Below, in pieces: positions 6,102 through 62,534 of a stretch of 64,000 bases of DNA. The stretch spans positions 372,001 to 436,000 of the forward strand of contig OX638348.1 in assembly GCA_951813085.1 (NCBI GenBank), written 5' to 3'. The position numbers were made by a program, and so were the translations under genes. The notes under the pieces are model-generated. The model saw only the letters and a list, made by a program, of their open reading frames with translations. It was not told where the DNA came from and did not search any database. The stretch's first letter is position 1; each line of letters begins with the position of its first letter. This DNA comes from an uncultured Opitutaceae bacterium. GTDB lineage: Bacteria; Verrucomicrobiota; Verrucomicrobiia; Opitutales; Opitutaceae.

Positions 6102-6987
6102 TTAGCTGTTCCCGAGCGTGCAAGGCTTGTTGGCGGATAGCGCGGTCGAGGTCATAGGTTCAGGCATTTCAAAGAGCGTGTGGTTGATCTTGCCATAGAA
6201 TTGCCTGAGCTCTGCCTCCATCAATCGCGTGGTTTCCCGAACCGTTTGAATGTCGCTGGCTTCGATCCAGTATTTTTCTGTGATCGTCTGAAGGAATTCG
6301 ATCTTTTCAGAGAGCGTTTAGGCTATCTTGCAGCATTTGCGAATCTGCCGCCGGGTACGGGTTGCTCTGCGTAAGGGTGGGGGCGGATCCGAGCGATTGC
6401 TTCAACGGCTGAGTGACGGGTTCTGATTGGAGGGCGCTCTCACTCGAGAGGTCCTTTACCGCATCCAGCAAGTTCCGATAGTTGAAAGGCTTAGGGAAGA
6501 TTTTGCTAGCGCCGAGACGATTGAACTGCTTCTCGGATTCCGGATTGAGGTAACCCGTTAGAACGATCACGGGGACTTCCGGATGGGCTTCCTTGATCGC
6601 AGCGATCACTTCCAGGCCATCTCGCTTGGGAAGGTGGTAGTCGAGTATAACCAGGTCCGCGTTGATCGCGTCTATTTTCGCCTCGATGCCGAAAAGGGCG
6701 CCGTTGTCCGAAAGGGACGTATAGACATTCCTCCCCTGCCTCGTATATACGCCGATGCTGTAGGCTGAAGCTGTCCAGATCTTAGAGGGGGCGCCAGCTC
6801 TGGATATGTACCCGCTATGGGTTCTCAAGGGCTGCGCGGCAGGCACCGTCAAGCCCTCGTCCCAATAGACGTCGATGGGCCTGCTCTTGGGATCCTTGTG
6901 CTCTTCCCCAATGTATATGAACCCGTTATTCAGCTCCTTGCCATTGGCGTCATTGAATTGGGGGTATTCTCTAATTGCTTCCGACAT
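6102..6987 (-). pseudogene. Chimera: phage tailspike head-binding domain fused to half a response regulator, then frameshifted
   Basis: Residues 1 to ~97 read as a P22-tailspike-type head-binding domain: PQFNDANGKELNNGFIYIG, PIDVYWDEGLTVPAAQPL, GYISRAGAPSKIWTASAYSI and YTRQGRNVY. From about residue 100 the frame becomes a receiver domain that lacks its first ~45 residues and Asp-Asp pocket but keeps Asp116 (LVILDYHLPKRDG), Thr144 and Lys166. The frame stops at 6307 after DSLNAL. A good coding continuation lies in another frame (SEKIEFLQTITEKYW to a stop at 6102), reached if the CT run at about 6312-6318 were one CT unit longer. I read this as a response regulator with a helical C-terminal extension, broken by a phage insertion and by a repeat slip. 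It cannot be phosphorylated normally. Confidence 0.75.
6680..6693 (+). repeat. Left inverted repeat of the phage-like insertion
   Basis: GCCTCGATGCCGAA on the plus strand is matched in inverted orientation at 8785-8799 (TTCGGGCATCGAGGC), with a single extra G in the right copy. It overlaps the exact point where the tailspike domain turns into a receiver domain. Confidence 0.45.
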
Positions 6988-11078: not shown

Positions 11079-12182
11079 CTAGCGGAAAACCATCAGCCGC
11101 TGCGTTAGCGGATTCGCGAAGTCGTGTTCCTTGATCTTCTTGATTATCCCATGAGTTAGACGGCGATCCTCGGGGATGAGTAGGAGTCCTGATGGGCTGT
11201 AGATGCCCTTGGCCAGAACCATTCCCGGCTCGAGCTCGGCTAACGTGAGCTCGCGGACTTTCTTGGGCAGGTTCGTCAAGTTGGAGCTCTTCATGAAGAG
11301 CCGCACGGCTTCAGGGTGGAATGCCTTCCCGGATTCGCGGATAATATGCTCCAGCGCTTGATCTCTTGGCAGTGCGCACTCAACGAACCCAACTGCCACA
11401 GCAAGATGGCGAGCTGGGACTGGGATCGTTTCACGGCTGAATCTATCCGGATATCCGCGTCCATCGAACCGCTCTCGATGGGATCGGATCGCGTGGCCCA
11501 CTTCTTCCAAGGTACCGACGAAACCCGCTAGCGTTTGGCCATAGACCGGATAGTGGTGAAGCAGCGTTTTCTCCTGCTCGTCCAAACTGGCGCGATCGTT
11601 CAAGCTCTTGGTAAGCAGATCCCTTGGCAATCCGATCCGGCCTAGATTGTAGAGCCAGGAGCTGACAGTGAGCACTTCGCGCTCCTTTTTCGTGAGCAGA
11701 TCCGAATTCGCGATCTCCTTGCATATGGCGACGACTGCTTTGGTTTGTTCCCCAAGCACGGGGTGGAAAGCTTCGATGAGGCGGAAGCAGATTTCAAGCG
11801 AGTGCTCGAAATTCTCTGCTAAGACCTGGTTCGCGCTTTCGAGGACGCTGGCCTGCTCTTCCAATTCCCGAATTTTCGATTCGAGCGATTCATTCGACGA
11901 AACCAATTTTTCGTTTAGCTCGAGCGTGTCAGCGGAAAGTTTCTCATTGGCCTCGACAGAGCGTACCGCTGGACGGCATTGTCTACAGTGGTAAGCAACT
12001 CTTCGCGTATCCACGGCTTTGCAAGAAATCGAAAAATTTCGCCGCGGTTCACAGCCTCAATTACCGTATTCAACGTTAGAACACCCGTAATCAATATTCG
12101 GGAGGCGTTCGATTGGGTCTCCTTGCATTTGTCGAGAAATTCTAAGCCCGTCATTTCGGGCATTCTCTGATCCGAAATGGGT
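11079..12182 (-). pseudogene. REC - coiled coil - HD-GYP gene, N-terminally deleted and frameshifted
   Basis: Two frames together encode an RpfG-like protein. The upstream frame begins mid-receiver (ISDQRMPEMTGLEFL, then RILITGV and FRFLAKPWIREELL) without the first ~50 residues and acidic pocket. About one base is missing near 11955-11962, after which the reading moves to a frame with a coiled coil (ANEKLSADTLELNEKL onward) and an HD-GYP domain down to 11079. In the HD-GYP domain the catalytic HD pair is replaced (SWLYNLGRIGLP), while HRERFDGRGYP is kept, so cyclic-di-GMP hydrolysis was probably already lost. The start of the remaining receiver is joined directly onto the end of cheR. Confidence 0.75.
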
Positions 12183-13053
12183 GGCTGATTCCCGCCAAGC
12201 TCTCGGCGTGACCTATCAGAAGGAAGCCGCCTGGATACAGGTGCTCGGACAAGCGACCGACGAGTCCCTCCTGAGTTTTCCGATCGAAATATATCATCAC
12301 GTTGCGACACCAGATGCAGTGGAATTTCTCTTTCCATGGCAAAGCGCTCTCAAACAAGTTCAAGCGACTGAAGCTGAGATGATTCCTTAGCTCTGGGCGA
12401 ATCCTGAAACTACCGGCGTTGGCGCCTCTTCCGGTCTGGAAGTATCGCTTTCTTGTCTTAGGATTCACCTGTTGCAGGTGGGCTTCGGTGTAGACGGCTT
12501 TCGACGCGAACCGCAGGACTCGGGTTGATATGTCAGTGCACTCTATGTGCCAGCTCGCTGGGGAATTCATTCCAACGCGCTCTGCCAGACTGATAGCGAC
12601 CGAATAGGGCTCCTCCCCTGTGGAGCATGCGCAGCTCCAAAGTCTCATCGAGCGTGAATCGCCAATCTCGCCCCGCTCGAATGCAGGCAAGATCGAGCTG
12701 TTCAGAAAATTGAAGTGATTCGCCTCCCTAAAGAAAAAGGTGTGGTTGGTTGAGATCGCATCGATCAGGTGATAGAGCTCCTCGCCTGAGCTTCTGTCCT
12801 TCAGCAGCGAGCAGTAGGCGTTGAAGGAACTGATTCCAAGCATTCGAAGCCGCTTTCCAAGACGCGCGGCTACGAGCTCGCGCTTATTGTTGCCTAGATT
12901 GATCCGGGTTTCGCGATAAACGATCTCGCGTATGAACGCGTAGTCTCGGTCAGAGATAGCAGCCTTTCGATCGTAGCCGGTTTCCAAGATCGCTCCGTGC
13001 GATTCCGTTTGAGCGCTCGTCGCTCTACTCTGGCTGGATTTGGCTAGTTTCAT
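12151..13053 (-). CDS. cheR: CheR-type methyltransferase, C-terminus altered by a deletion junction
   Basis: CheR methylates chemoreceptor glutamates using S-adenosylmethionine. ISDRDYAFIREIVYRET starts the N-terminal all-alpha domain. NHTFFFREANHFNFL is the conserved Thr-Phe-Phe-Arg motif, and LWSCACSTGEEPYSVAI is the SAM-binding loop. IECTDIS and IWCRNVMIYFDRKTQ follow as expected. I prefer the start at 13053 (MKLAKSS) to an upstream one at 13146, because it better fits the usual distance to the domain. The normal ending (HAESLAGISHP) runs straight into out-of-frame receiver codons, adding RIRECPK. The last strand is therefore missing, and the enzyme may or may not fold. Confidence 0.8.
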   Translation of the reverse strand: MKLAKSSQSRATSAQTESHGAILETGYDRKAAISDRDYAFIREIVYRETRINLGNNKRELVAARLGKRLRMLGISSFNAYCSLLKDRSSGEELYHLIDAISTNHTFFFREANHFNFLNSSILPAFERGEIGDSRSMRLWSCACSTGEEPYSVAISLAERVGMNSPASWHIECTDISTRVLRFASKAVYTEAHLQQVNPKTRKRYFQTGRGANAGSFRIRPELRNHLSFSRLNLFESALPWKEKFHCIWCRNVMIYFDRKTQEGLVGRLSEHLYPGGFLLIGHAESLAGISHPFRIRECPK

Positions 13054-57065: not shown

Positions 57066-57161
57066 ATGGGTAATCTAAAGAAGAAACGCCGTCTTAAGAT
57101 GTCGAAGCACAAGCGCCGCAAGCGCTTGAAGTCAAATCGCCATAAGAAGAAGGCTTGGTAG
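57066..57161 (+). CDS. 31-residue basic mini-protein, AURKAIP1/COX24-domain type
   Basis: The small gene encodes 31 residues beginning [20 protein letters not shown] and ending in RHKKKAW, with about half Lys or Arg. This pattern ([15 protein letters not shown]) matches the bacterial AURKAIP1/COX24-domain proteins, relatives of a mitochondrial small-subunit ribosomal protein found in Bacteroidota, PVC and related phyla. It probably binds rRNA. A GAAGAGAG segment lies just upstream and a terminator ~80 bases downstream. It is monocistronic. Confidence 0.9.
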
Positions 57162-57631: not shown

Positions 57632-58665
57632 ATGATTTCCTCCAGTAAAAAAGATTACATCGTAGAGTATCGTCCCTCCTCTATTAGGATGGCTCGGGTA
57701 AGCTCGTTCACGTCCCCGATTACAGTCGAGGCGATCGAAGAAATAGCTCTCGAAGGTGAACCGGATGCGATTGCTAGCGCATTCGAAAATTCAGCGGCGC
57801 TAAATCGAATGGGTATTTGAATGGCTCTTGCATAGTCTACCCGGAGCGTCGGGTCATCCGGCAAGTGTTGATCGATGCCCCCCGAGGCAAGGAGACCGAA
57901 TTCATTTTTAACTTGTTGCACGACGAAATTGAAAATGCTCCCGCAGAGCTTTCCGCCCATTGCCTCTCTCCGGAATCGGGCAAAGAAGTGGATCCCACAG
58001 AGTTTAACCGGAAGGACGTCGTGGGCTGCGGCGTGCCCAATCCTGATATCGCGGACCTGCAATCGCGTATGCTTGATCACGCGATATACCCCAGACGAGT
58101 TGAGCTCGGTACCATAGGTGTCATTGGCGCCCTTCAAGAAGCCCTGGTTTGGCAAGAGTCGAAGGTGTCTGCTCTTTTTCTCGAGCTAGAAGATCGAGTC
58201 GCCAACGCCGTGATAATCGGTCCCAAGGGGATAGAGATGTCGCGCAAGGTGGAAGCGGGTACGTTGGACATCGCGGAAGCCCTCAAAGAAGAGCTCAGCC
58301 TCAAGGATATGGATGCGGCGTTCAGGCTGCTGTCATCCAAGGATTTCGACCTCAGCTCTATATCGAGAAAGATCCTCAGGAAACTTTTGCGCGAGCTTCA
58401 GTCCTCGATTGGTTTCTATGAAGTCCAAACAGGTCAATCGGTCAGCTGGATCCATACGTCTTCGAGATCAGTGTCGATGGATTGGCTCGAGGAGAGCATT
58501 GGGAGCTTCTTGAACTTGGAATCGTTTCAGCTCGAAATGGAGGCGTGGCTCGAATCGAGCGGGGTCAGTTTCGCAAGCGAAGAACTTAGCGGAAAGATCG
58601 ATCTTTCATGGATTGGCCTCTTCTCAACCCTTTGCTCTTTCAATCGGGAGGTTGCGGCTGCGTGA
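57632..58665 (+). pseudogene. pilM: pilM-like pilus assembly gene, frameshifted
   Basis: PilM is an actin-like cytoplasmic ATP-binding protein of the type IV pilus or type II secretion platform. The first frame (MISSSKKDYIVEYRPSSIRMARVSS) ends at a stop at 57820. A continuous coding frame (FSGAKSNGYLNGSCIVYPERRVIRQVL to FNREVAAA) continues at -1 from about 57780. One missing base near GCGCATTCG (57777-57783) explains this: adding one base restores a single protein. The later part has the expected LDHAIYPRRVELGTIGVIGAL and LFLELEDRVANAVIIG. The start ATG at 57632 follows GGGGA. PilM is disrupted unless the base is a sequencing error. Confidence 0.8.
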
Positions 58666-59280
58666 AGAAAAAAGAAAAGAAAGTCGAAGAAGTCGTAGAG
58701 CTGAATTGGCGTCCTGATTTCAGGGACCGCGATTCGCTCCCGGACATTAAAACCGTTCGTACGAGTTTCTTCCTGTCTGCGCTAGCCATAACGATAGCCG
58801 TCATGAGCCTGATTCATGTAGGGTTTTACGAATACACGATCTACGCTTCTGGCAATAAGATAGAGAAGAGCAAAGCAGGGGTTGCGTCACGCCAAGGTTT
58901 GCATGTTAAGGCCATTGGCATGAACAACAAGTTCATTGATAGTGAAAGACGTATTGAAGAAATTTATACGTTTGAGAAAGATCAAATGGTTGCTAGCGAT
59001 CTTATCCTAGACGTAGGTCGAAGCTTGCTGCCGGGCATGTCCCTTTCAAGCGTCGAGTACAATGAGCACCGCACAGTGCTCCATGGCTATGTCGTCGCGA
59101 GCGAGGAGACCGGATTCTCTCCTGAAAGAGTATGTGGAGAAGCTGCGGAACGTAGATACGCTTAAAGAAAGATATACGGACTTCACTCAAATCTCGGTAG
59201 AGCGCCAGCCCGATACAGACCAAATTAAATTCCACCTGGAAGCTACGAACCCTGAGGAGAAGGCGAAGAAGAAATCGTAA
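58662..59280 (+). pseudogene. pilN: pilN-like inner-membrane pilus gene, frameshifted
   Basis: A PilN/GspL-type bitopic protein starting with GTG at 58662, overlapping pilM by four bases (GTGA) with a GGAGG site upstream. Residues ~35-60 form the membrane segment (TSFFLSALAITIAVMSLIHV), followed by a coiled-coil and ferredoxin-like region. The frame goes off at about 59100-59115 (EETGFSPERV, stop 59165), while the +1 frame gives SLLKEYVEKLRNVDTLKERYTDFTQ to the end at 59280. One extra base in GAGACCGGATTC explains it. The restored protein would be about 205 residues. Confidence 0.8.
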
Positions 59281-59282
59281 CG

Positions 59283-59873
59283 ATGAGCATTGAGCCCATA
59301 GTAGAGGTCATCAGGAAAAACTTCACGATCGCTATATCCACGATCGTGATAGCTGCATGCATGACTGTGTACCTGATGCACCTTGGAAAGAAGTCGGATT
59401 TAGACTCTGAGATTGAGCAATTGGATATTCGAATCTCCACGATGCTGAAGAACATCAAGAACAGCGCGGGGCTAGAAGAGGATGTCGAGAGAGTAGAGCA
59501 GCAAATCGGAGAGCTCGACTTGCGAATGTTCCACTCGCAAGAGCTGGCGACTAATTACAACTACTTCTTCAATATCGAGGCTGCAAGCGATGTCGAGCTT
59601 AGCGGTTTGAAGCAAGTTGGGATCGCAGAGGAAACGGTCGATCCCAGAAAGCGTCGAATGCCGAAGCCAGTTGTCAATGCGTATGTAAAAATTAGGTACC
59701 ATATGAAAGCTACGGGCAAGTATGGCGAACTCGTTAATTTTATGAGGAAGCTAGAAGGCGGCCCGTCTTTTTATCGACTAGAGAAATTCAAAATATCAAG
59801 ACCGTCCACTGCTGGCGACGAAACGCTCTCGATGGATGTATCCTTCTTGATGCTAGGAAAGGAGGCTTCGTAG
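59283..59873 (+). CDS. pilO: PilO-like inner-membrane pilus protein
   Basis: A 196-residue protein with a membrane segment at ~14-34 (FTIAISTIVIAACMTVYLMHLG), a coiled coil (SEIEQLDIRISTMLKNIKNS) and a periplasmic domain (KYGELVNFMRKLEGGPSFYRLEKFKIS), the PilO/GspM plan. It forms a heterodimer with PilN in the pilus platform. The frame is intact, starting two bases after pilN. Its stop is followed by the pilP-like gene. Confidence 0.82.
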   Translation: MSIEPIVEVIRKNFTIAISTIVIAACMTVYLMHLGKKSDLDSEIEQLDIRISTMLKNIKNSAGLEEDVERVEQQIGELDLRMFHSQELATNYNYFFNIEAASDVELSGLKQVGIAEETVDPRKRRMPKPVVNAYVKIRYHMKATGKYGELVNFMRKLEGGPSFYRLEKFKISRPSTAGDETLSMDVSFLMLGKEAS

Positions 59874-59879
59874 TTCCCT

Positions 59880-60350
59880 ATAAAATTTAGAATAGCAACC
59901 TATTTAGTAGTCCTTTTTGCGGCGGCGATTTTCGTTTCTAGCGTGGAAGCGGTTGTTAAAGCTGCGGAAGAGCGAAAAGAGAAGATTGAAATAGCCGACA
60001 AGCTCCTGGCTAAAAAAGTCGTTTTGCCAGAGGTGGAACAGATTGCGAAAATTGGAGATCCCTTTGGCGTTGCGGTGGCCGAGATTGCCGCTGTGGAAGA
60101 GGGAGTTGTGGATGAGTCGCTAGCTGCGGACGAGCTGATACCGCTCCTTGCGAAGAATGTGAATCCGACCGATATCTTCGCCATCGGGGAAGAGTACTTC
60201 CTTATGTTTAAGGAGGAGAAAGTGAAAATCGGTGGAATAATACCGGTACTGTATAAGAACAAAGAATACAATTTAGAAATCACTAGCGTACTTCGAAATG
60301 CCTATAGCTTGCGTTTAGAAGATGCTGAATTGGAGATTAAACTAAAGTAG
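59880..60350 (+). pseudogene. PilP/GspC-like gene without a recognisable start codon
   Basis: The frame reads a good signal peptide (IPIKFRIATYLVVLFAAAIFVSS, then VEAVVKAAEERK), but the preceding in-frame codons are TAG-TTC-CCT-ATA; there is no ATG, GTG or TTG before the signal. The strong GGAAAGGAGG site ends at about 59863, pointing to a start at 59874-59880. A GTG at 59943 would remove the signal peptide. The mature domain (AKIGDPFGV, MFKEEKVKIGGIIPVLYKNKEYNLEITSV) resembles the pilus or secretion GspC/PilP beta domain. Either the start was lost by substitution or an ATA start is used. Confidence 0.55.
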
Positions 60351-60356
60351 AGAGAT

Positions 60357-62042
60357 ATGAACACTGCACTAAGATTAATGATTAACACTATCTTGTTTGC
60401 GTGCCTGCAGTTTGCGGCGCTCGGACAGGTCGGTCAGTCAGATGTCAATACGGACCCTCCGAGTCCGTCTGACGTTGGCAGGCAGTTCGACGATTCCGTC
60501 CTTCGAGGCGAATCCGAGTCGAACCAAAGCGAGGAAGCGGGGAGCGGATTAAGCGCCTCGCCACTGAGTAATGAACTTTCGTTGGGTGAAACGGATATGA
60601 TATCAGTCGATTTTCCGAATGAGGAAATTCGTACCGTACTACGGAATGTAGCGGATCTGTATATGCTGAATATCGTGATTCCAGAAGATCTGCAAGGTAC
60701 GACCTCCATCAAGTTGAGGGACGTTTCTTGGAGACAGATTTTCGAAGTCGTTCTGGGGCCGATTGGCTACACGTACGTCGAGGAAGGAAATATCATTCAG
60801 ATCATCTCGAACGATACTCTGAATTTCGAGCCGCCTGTTACCGACATATTCATGTTGAACTATGCGGAAGCGAACGATATCGTCGGCACGATTACGAGCA
60901 TGGTGGATACCGAGAAGGGTGGCCGCGTTCAGATCGATGCGCGTACCAATGGATTGATCGTTACGGAGCGCCAGTCACGCATGTCTAGCATTCGCTAGGT
61001 TATCGAGCGCTTGGATAAGCCAACGTTGCAGGTGTTGATAGAAACGTGCTTTGTCGAGGTAACTAATTCCGATGTATCCAAGATTGGAATGAAGTGGAAT
61101 AGCCTTGAGGAATTTGAAGTTACTGCGACTAATTTGAATCGTACGTACAACGATTTAGACACCCGAGTTGGTAACAACAATCGCGGTACAGAGAACAACA
61201 CCGAAAGCAACTTCGGTACGGTTGATCTCGCGGTAGGCGATTCTTCAGTTTCCGGCGATCCGGGAACGCGCAGTGGTCAGTTCATAAACAACTTGACGGG
61301 TCAAACCTTGCTGGATGCCACTACGAATTCTACGTCGAGTGTACAGCAGGACGCTGTCCGCAATTTGACGTCTTTTGTTCATGGGGGAGATCTGCAAAAG
61401 ACTACCAGTGCTGTGTTTAGCGCGACCCAAATCGGCTACGTCTTCAGCGCTCTCAAAACGCAAGGAAATAGCCGCTTGGTATCACACCCAACTGTGGTGA
61501 CCTTGAACAACCAAGAAGCGGAGATCGCGATTGGCGAGCAGTTCCCAATTCCGAACTACCAGCACAACGAGGAGCGTGGATCTTTCGAAGTAAGCGGATT
61601 CGAGTACAAGGATATCGGGGTTATCTTGAAAGTTAAGCCATCCGTAAATAACGAAGGCTTAATTACGATGAAGGTTAATCCACAGGTGAGCAGCCGTACC
61701 GGCGAACGCGAATTTGGTGGAGCCAGTGGCACGAGCATTCCAATCATCTCGACTCGCAGAACCACGACCCAAATTTCATTGAAAGATGGATACACAATGG
61801 GTCTTGGAGGTCTTCTGCAAGCTAGCGAGATTGAAACGAATACTCGGGTACCGCTATTGAGCAAGATCCCTGGTTTAGGAGCCGCATTCCGTCACAAGGA
61901 AAAGGACGGCGAAAAGATGAACCTATTGATCTTTATCACAGCCAAGATCTTGTCTAGCGAAGATGCCGATTTCGAAGACGTGTTCACTCAAGAGAGAATG
62001 GACGAAGTTGGAATCGATTCTGATTCGATTCGCAACCAATAG
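60357..62042 (+). pseudogene. pilQ: PilQ/GspD secretin with internal amber stop
   Basis: The secretin forms the outer-membrane channel of the pilus. Residues 1-22 are a signal peptide (LMINTILFACLQFAALGQ). ISVDFPNEEIRTVLRNVADLYMLNIVI is the N1/secretin-TonB short domain. At codon 214 (60996-60998) the frame hits TAG exactly where SIRxVIERLDKPTLQV is expected in the family. The frame continues unbroken for 347 codons with FSALKTQGNSRLVSHPTVVTLNNQEAEIAIGEQFPI, VILKVKPSVNNEGLITMKVNPQVS, VPLLSKIPGLGAAFRHKEK and LLIFITAKIL, all classic secretin motifs. A single-base nonsense change from CAG, AAG or GAG would explain it. Confidence 0.85.
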
Positions 62043-62114: not shown

Positions 62115-62534
62115 TTACTCTCCGATTATGGTGATAGCGATTGAACGCGTGTGCGGCTGGTCTCTGTGCTCCCATAGAAAGAGCCCTTGCCAGGTTCCCA
62201 AGGCGAGCGCGCCATTCGAGAATGGAATGTTCTCTGAACTCCGAGTAAGAGCCATTTTTATATGGCTAGGCATGTCGTCGGGTCCCTCGTAGGTGTGGGT
62301 GAAATTGGGATCGTCTTCGGGAACGAGCCGGCGGAGATAGTCCTCGAGATCGCGCCGCGCGGAGGGATCCGCGTTTTCCATAAGGACCAAGCTGCAGCTC
62401 GTATGCTTGCAAAATACGGTAACTTGACCCCTGACGAGACCGGACTGATTGAGGGCGTCGCGAACTTGGTCGGTTATGTCGTAGGTGCGTTGCCCCTGCG
62501 TCCTCAGCTGCGTTTCGGACTGCGCGATTTTCAT
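62115..62534 (-). CDS. YjbQ-family (UPF0047) protein
   Basis: A 139-residue protein. TYDITDQVRDALNQSGLVRGQVTVFCKHTSCSLVLMENADPS, then FTHTYEGPDDMPSHIKMALTRSS and LALGTWQGLFLWEHRDQPHTRSIAITIIGE in pieces, match the YjbQ family throughout, including the HTSC and DMPSHIK motifs that line a metal or phosphate site. Members weakly make thiamine phosphate in vitro; the physiological role is open. It is translated downstream of the HtrA-like gene with a two-base gap. Confidence 0.93.
   Translation of the reverse strand: MKIAQSETQLRTQGQRTYDITDQVRDALNQSGLVRGQVTVFCKHTSCSLVLMENADPSARRDLEDYLRRLVPEDDPNFTHTYEGPDDMPSHIKMALTRSSENIPFSNGALALGTWQGLFLWEHRDQPHTRSIAITIIGE

Follow-up and report, generated by a model that had tools for sequence, protein, structure and literature searches.

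In the type IV pilus (T4P), PilM, PilN, PilO and PilP bring the inner-membrane platform into line with the PilQ channel; PilB powers extension by way of PilC, and retraction depends on PilT. Waves of pseudogene formation are known in host-associated Verrucomicrobia from the portions covered of two reports (PMC5698493, PMC9600693). Here we describe the pilMNOPQ operon in a window of 64,000 nucleotides (positions 372001-436000) from an uncultured Opitutaceae bacterium whose genome, hereafter G000, is a single contig of 4.85 Mb that is 97% complete. We found lesions in four of the five genes of the operon and damage at further pilus loci outside the window, and we conclude that pilMNOPQ very probably represents recent pseudogenes in a lineage that stopped making T4P.

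We called lesions in the operon by a frameshift-aware alignment in which the references were the intact proteins from G009 (contig L034, IP29b_bin.87), which is the closest relative among the best 80 of 110 contig matches (88% identity in the PilQ C-terminus); sample IP29b is from Isopora palifera coral skeleton, according to the part covered of PMC9868349. The nearest named relatives in the same best 80 matches are metagenome-assembled genomes (MAGs) labelled Opitutaceae, Opitutales or Verrucomicrobiia, and these matches include no record of the same species, in a scan from which very near records may be omitted. The operon was compared with that of eight genomes of the same genus and two from other genera of the family; the genus set comprises 11 genomes, G000 included.

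The four lesions reported in the initial annotation were all present. pilM carries a single -1 frameshift at about 57782 relative to G009 PilM (79% identity over 344 amino acids), and pilN a single +1 frameshift at about 59109-59112 (80% identity over 205 amino acids). The pilQ frame is interrupted by a TAG; its N-terminal half matches Secretin_N/STN and its C-terminal half matches Secretin PF00263 (E 9.5e-48). The pilP frame has no inner lesion relative to its G009 orthologue (157 amino acids, beginning with ATG), and contains no ATG, GTG or TTG before codon 22 (GTG at 59943), with ATA at the position of the start codon of the relatives. ATA is listed as a possible start in NCBI's table, and its use is very rare. 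Because ATA might serve as a start and an AGGAGG still lies upstream, the pilP lesion is the weakest of the four. pilO was clean, as had also been reported.

In gene order and gene lengths the operon matches those of the relatives, and G009 has five intact genes of nearly equal lengths. The best NCBIfam match of G009 PilQ is IV_pilus_PilQ TIGR02515 (E 4e-72; 243.5 bits, where the cut-off is 284); PilM, PilN, PilO and PilP have no curated family match above cut-off and are named by order, size and place. A weak Med9 match on PilO was judged to be due to chance. The disabling lesions of G000 are absent from the orthologues: in 10 of 10 relatives, all covered parts of pilM to pilQ lie in single open frames. 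Contig ends cut the operon in G001, which is covered for pilQ and part of pilP, and in G007, which is covered for pilP, pilQ and part of pilO. Both pilM and pilN are open in the eight relatives whose fetched contigs carry pilM. The G002 pilQ is shorter. We considered an in-frame TGA in the pilQ of G010 as a second case of decay and rejected it, because it lies only four codons before the end of the gene.

The initial annotation had proposed a recent loss of pili, and this proposal is supported by damage that is broader than the window. The G000 pilB, which adjoins an open pilT, has three frameshifts; pilB is whole in G002, G003, G004, G009 and G010, whereas in G001 and G007 a contig end truncates it and the frame is otherwise open. 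A T4P pilC orthologue (81-100% identity) is found in 7 of the 11 genus genomes, counting the genome that supplied the query, and is absent from G000, G004, G006 and G008. At the pilC site of G000 (near 3509.49k) the flanking genes have been brought together and there is no recognizable pilC remnant, indicating that pilC was deleted. The partner genes were thus not found in working form elsewhere in G000.

A second pilus cluster, which resembles Amuc_1098-1101 of Akkermansia, is also broken in at least three of its four genes. The Amuc_1101-like gene has two lesions, the 1100-like gene one and the 1099-like gene one near its end, and the Amuc_1098-like secretin gene is split by two inserts. The 1.5 kb insert is unrelated DNA, and the insert of about 1.23 kb is an IS3-like repeat with 57 matched stretches across the genome (40 of 54 candidates scored). 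The copies of this repeat, which probably encode IS3-type OrfA/OrfB, are about 90-99% identical, scattered genome-wide and in many cases partial. Measured on the intact G010 orthologues, the family matches are to Amuc_1101 (E 4e-82), Amuc_1098 (E 1.3e-115) and Amuc_1100 (E 7e-21); they lie below the NCBIfam cut-offs, which makes the cluster a distant relative of the Akkermansia Amuc_1098 PilQ system as described in the part covered of PMC4960237.

Table 1. Locations of the features discussed. Positions are those of the window unless prefixed with G000:C1; lesions are given as found in G000.
Feature	Location	Strand	Remarks
pilM, broken	57632..58665	+	ATG at 57632; first frame stops at TGA 57818-57820; remainder (57781-58665) in a different frame
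pilN, broken	58662..59280	+	GTG at 58662 overlaps the stop of pilM; initial frame closes at 59165; homologous tail in a different frame
pilO, intact, 196 amino acids	59283..59873	+	no lesion in alignment to G009
pilP, start codon lost	59880..60350	+	frame otherwise open; Shine-Dalgarno-like AGGAGG retained upstream
pilQ secretin, broken	60357..62042	+	in-frame TAG at 60996-60998; halves otherwise share one frame; 88% identical to G009 PilQ
Small basic protein gene	57066..57158	+	left neighbor of operon
UPF0047 gene	62115..62534	-	right neighbor of operon
Response regulator	6111..6711	-	in window; frameshifted near 6309
Receiver-HD-GYP (NosR-like family)	11079..12337	-	in window, beside cheR/cheW/cheD; frameshift near 11956
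1.5 kb insert in second secretin	G000:C1:4097013-4098514 (L128:7014-8514)		unrelated DNA; weak phage-family (PHROG) matches in one open reading frame
IS3-like repeat (~1.23 kb) in second secretin	G000:C1:4098908-4100135 (L128:8909-10135)		
cheA (357k)	G000:C1:356430-358917		appears split
argA-like (N-acetylglutamate synthase) gene	G000:C1:4275294-4276596		appears frameshifted
Two sulfatase genes	G000:C1:4334696-4336193 and 4352544-4354402		frameshifts or stop
GspF/PilC-like and T2SSF-family genes	G000:C1:4406497-4407764, 2355907-2356851		frameshifted; two further secretion-like loci

We then set this damage against the background of the genome. The tally covered syntenic genes of at least 150 amino acids aligned at 60% identity and 70% coverage, with lesions confirmed by alignment and the first 15% and last 8% of each gene ignored. 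Many "broken" matches of the first scans were not counted, as they resembled antisense shadow open reading frames (ORFs) or genes with a start extended upstream, a lolD-like ORF being one example. By these rules, which drop pilM from the count for G000 and omit pilP, pilB and the second secretin, 13 of 204 genes were broken in G000 (with G010 as reference) and 4 of 204 in G010 (with G000 as reference; p = 0.044). Among the 13, a 179-amino-acid gene with a stop near its end and a 173-amino-acid gene are doubtful; among the four in G010, one was judged to be an artefact of a fusion in G000 and one to be an antisense ORF. pilM, whose lesion lies just outside the strict inner zone, was counted back under a looser rule that adds no gene elsewhere. 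With pilM included, the two pilus regions have 5 of 8 genes broken, as compared with 9 of the 196 other genes (p = 3.6e-5 by Fisher's test, syntenic comparison with G010). When the second cluster is taken by itself, 2 of 4 genes are broken (p = 0.016), a value that is not blind, as this block was fetched because its secretin ORF looked short, and one of the four scored genes is not a pilus gene.

The initial annotation had also suggested a loss of secretin-dependent export and had treated the damage as special to the operon. The first suggestion is not supported: the type II secretion system (T2SS) genes gspD, gspE, gspF and gspL have no lesion by frameshift-aware alignment, the GspD secretin is intact, and none of the 10 scored genes of the T2SS stretch is broken, although an actin-like gene directly beside the stretch is. 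The second holds in part. The pilus regions stand above background and gyrA is open in all 11 genus genomes (the G007 copy is partial), but signalling genes, an argA-like gene, sulfatase genes and others are also broken. The response regulator and receiver-HD-GYP genes of the window are frameshifted, a PAS-histidine kinase-receiver hybrid carries three frameshifts, and a 1159-amino-acid gene has a broken counterpart. Within the window the frames of cheR, cheD and cheW are open, and cheA appears to be split, its ORF ending inside the kinase domain; this call rests on a tblastn comparison with G003 and on the places where ORFs end, not on frameshift-aware alignment. At the place in G010 that matches cheA there is only about 0.5 kb, which is too little for the gene. 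Frameshifted GspF/PilC-like and T2SSF-family genes were seen in two further secretion-like loci (Table 1).

These observations bear on the reading that erosion is random across the genome and that the pilus genes are merely among those that can be dispensed with. The excess of broken genes over G010, the many copies of the IS3-like repeat and the breakage of sulfatase, argA-like and signalling genes and of the 1159-amino-acid gene counterpart all favor it, whereas the concentration of damage in the pilus loci and the sparing of the related T2SS stretch do not. We regard it as a real possibility, one from which we lean slightly away; it is compatible with our preferred explanation and differs from it solely in whether pilus loss was favored or tolerated.

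Two relatives, G006 and G008, have the conserved neighbors of the operon, the small basic protein gene and the UPF0047 gene, and lack precisely what lies between them; the matches of these neighbors lie 159 bp apart in G006 and 284 bp apart in G008. No PilQ-like secretin was found elsewhere in either genome, and each retains a short pilB relic with a TAG. In a gyrA tree, G006 groups with G010 and G003, and G008 with G001, partners that carry the operon as far as covered. This tree, a single-gene tree with some weak branches, requires three presence changes of the operon on well-supported branches. We read them as three losses, given that the operon also occurs in genomes outside the genus. At least two near relatives, two other species of the genus, thus appear from the sequences to have lost the operon separately. 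The genus contains operons that are open as far as covered (8 of the 11 genomes), single-lesion pseudogenes (G000) and clean absence (G006 and G008). In G006, which lacks both pilus secretins, ORFs of at least 200 amino acids cover 0.61 of 60 kb sampled (L292, L296, L231), as compared with 0.73-0.84 in G000, G010, G009 and G002; the lower coverage suggests more advanced erosion.

Pilus loss could have been selected, not just tolerated, in the genus: three lineages would independently have dropped the operon, and in G000 both pilus systems failed together with a chemosensory path (cheA and receivers) while the closely related T2SS was kept. We consider this unlikely. Such a pattern would be expected if, in cells that have become confined to a host, pili were a liability, be it as receptors for phages or as surfaces that the host recognizes.

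We also analyzed substitution patterns in 8 broken genes and 15 controls, trimming piece ends and dropping two low-quality control rows (blk_23851, 6:12, and blk_31193, 0:0). Unique replacements, scored where all the other relatives used are invariant, numbered 67 in G000 and 36 in G009 for the broken genes, and 93 and 102 for the controls (odds ratio 2.04, p = 0.005). On the G000 branch, the ratio of nonsynonymous to synonymous changes (N:S) was 208:203 for the broken genes as against 314:394 for the controls, a marginal difference (p = 0.047). The initial annotation had proposed a comparison of the rate of pilO with that of the rest; in the present counts pilO, with one unique replacement in G000 and six in G009 at otherwise invariant sites, looks constrained rather than drifting. 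Overall, the counts would fit a relaxation of selection that is mild but detectable, as might follow a recent loss; the rate tests other than that on unique replacements are weak.

The unique replacements in the broken genes also bear on the possibility that the lesions are errors left in the assembly, a single contig that probably comes from long reads, and that the operon is intact in the cell. Two of the four operon lesions are single-base indels, a biosynthetic gene (argA) also appears frameshifted, which indicates either arginine auxotrophy or a sequence error, and G000 is one contig with no second genome of its species in the comparison. Errors of polishing do not, however, take the form of a nonsense substitution, a gene deletion or two insertions, and none of the nine frameshift contexts listed contains a homopolymer longer than 4. 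Because of the deletion, the insertions, the clustering of lesions in pilus loci while gyrA and the T2SS stretch are clean, and the excess of replacements, assembly error alone does not account for the findings, and we consider this explanation quite improbable. Fragmented pilus genes in single-contig genomes can be true decay, not assembly noise. The possibility that programmed frameshifting or stop-codon readthrough yields full proteins is next to negligible: the sequence flanking each lesion is conserved (79-88% identical), but the comparison with relatives proposed in the initial annotation showed open operons that share none of the frame breaks (0 of 10), TAG is the ordinary stop of both pilO and pilQ here, and the lesions differ in kind and are spread over different genes.

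Several observations weigh against a specific and recent loss of pili. The evidence comes from one assembly, the single genome of its species, and each operon gene in the window has one lesion that is singly within reach of assembly error. The pilT genes of G000 stay open. No close pilB match was found in G005, and G004 has no pilC orthologue, yet pilMNOPQ is open in both; draft-genome gaps or partial losses therefore occur in other genomes too. The tally with G010 as reference did not pick up the lesion in the 1099-like gene, and decay reaches argA and other genes without an obvious tie to pili. Coverage by ORFs of at least 200 amino acids is not lower in G000 (0.783) than in G010 (0.767), and is 0.839 in G009. 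The N:S of the broken genes does not differ between the branch of G000 and that of G009 (odds ratio 1.11, p = 0.48), that on the G009 branch tends the opposite way relative to controls (p = 0.06), and gspD, an intact gene among the controls, itself shows an excess (23:14).

The best reading of all these results remains a recent, real inactivation of the T4P during early genome erosion. The genes for the inner-membrane platform (pilM, pilN and, by loss of its start, pilP) and for the outer-membrane secretin (pilQ) each carry an interruption, the gene of the extension ATPase, pilB, is broken, that of the platform protein PilC is deleted, and the second pilus system is also broken, in part by the IS3-like insertion. 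Because M, N, P, Q and B are broken and C is deleted, the cell should be unable to build any pilus, and twitching, pilus adhesion and pilus-driven DNA uptake would be gone. Selection on the operon may have relaxed before or at the fixation of the first lesion, probably as a result of a stable host- or surface-bound life, and drift and insertion sequence activity may then have damaged the rest.

Several described systems come close to G000, as judged from the portions of the reports covered. Candidatus Didemnitutus mandela, an Opitutaceae symbiont of a tunicate, is more reduced (2.68 Mb; PMC5698493); the text covered mentions lipopolysaccharide and amino-acid genes and does not contain the word "pili," which was likewise not found in the text covered for the next two systems. 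Candidatus Thermopylae lasonolidus, one of the Verrucomicrobia from a sponge (PMC9600693), resembles G000 in its size of about 5 Mb, its early-stage reduction with about 16% putative pseudogenes, and the absence of chemotaxis genes relative to its free-living relative, and differs in that the closest such relative is Pedosphaera. Candidatus Synoicihabitans palmerolidicus, from an Antarctic ascidian (PMC8636102), is likewise an Opitutaceae MAG (4.30 Mb) in which the authors suspect many pseudogenes; in contrast to G000, they see no ongoing genome reduction. The insect symbionts of the genus Asaia (PMC8092202) belong to another phylum, and the opening of the abstract does not mention pilus genes; their independent, convergent reductions in related strains resemble the parallel losses described here. 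No report of T4P loss in this group was found among the titles and abstract openings listed in literature searches, whose coverage leaves out most subscription papers. As the genus shows all stages of loss side by side, it can be measured in which order and how fast a surface machine is lost, and with host data it could be used to test whether pilus loss tracks host restriction. Pilus loss is known from other bacteria; G000 involves no new mechanism and is a clear case caught midway.

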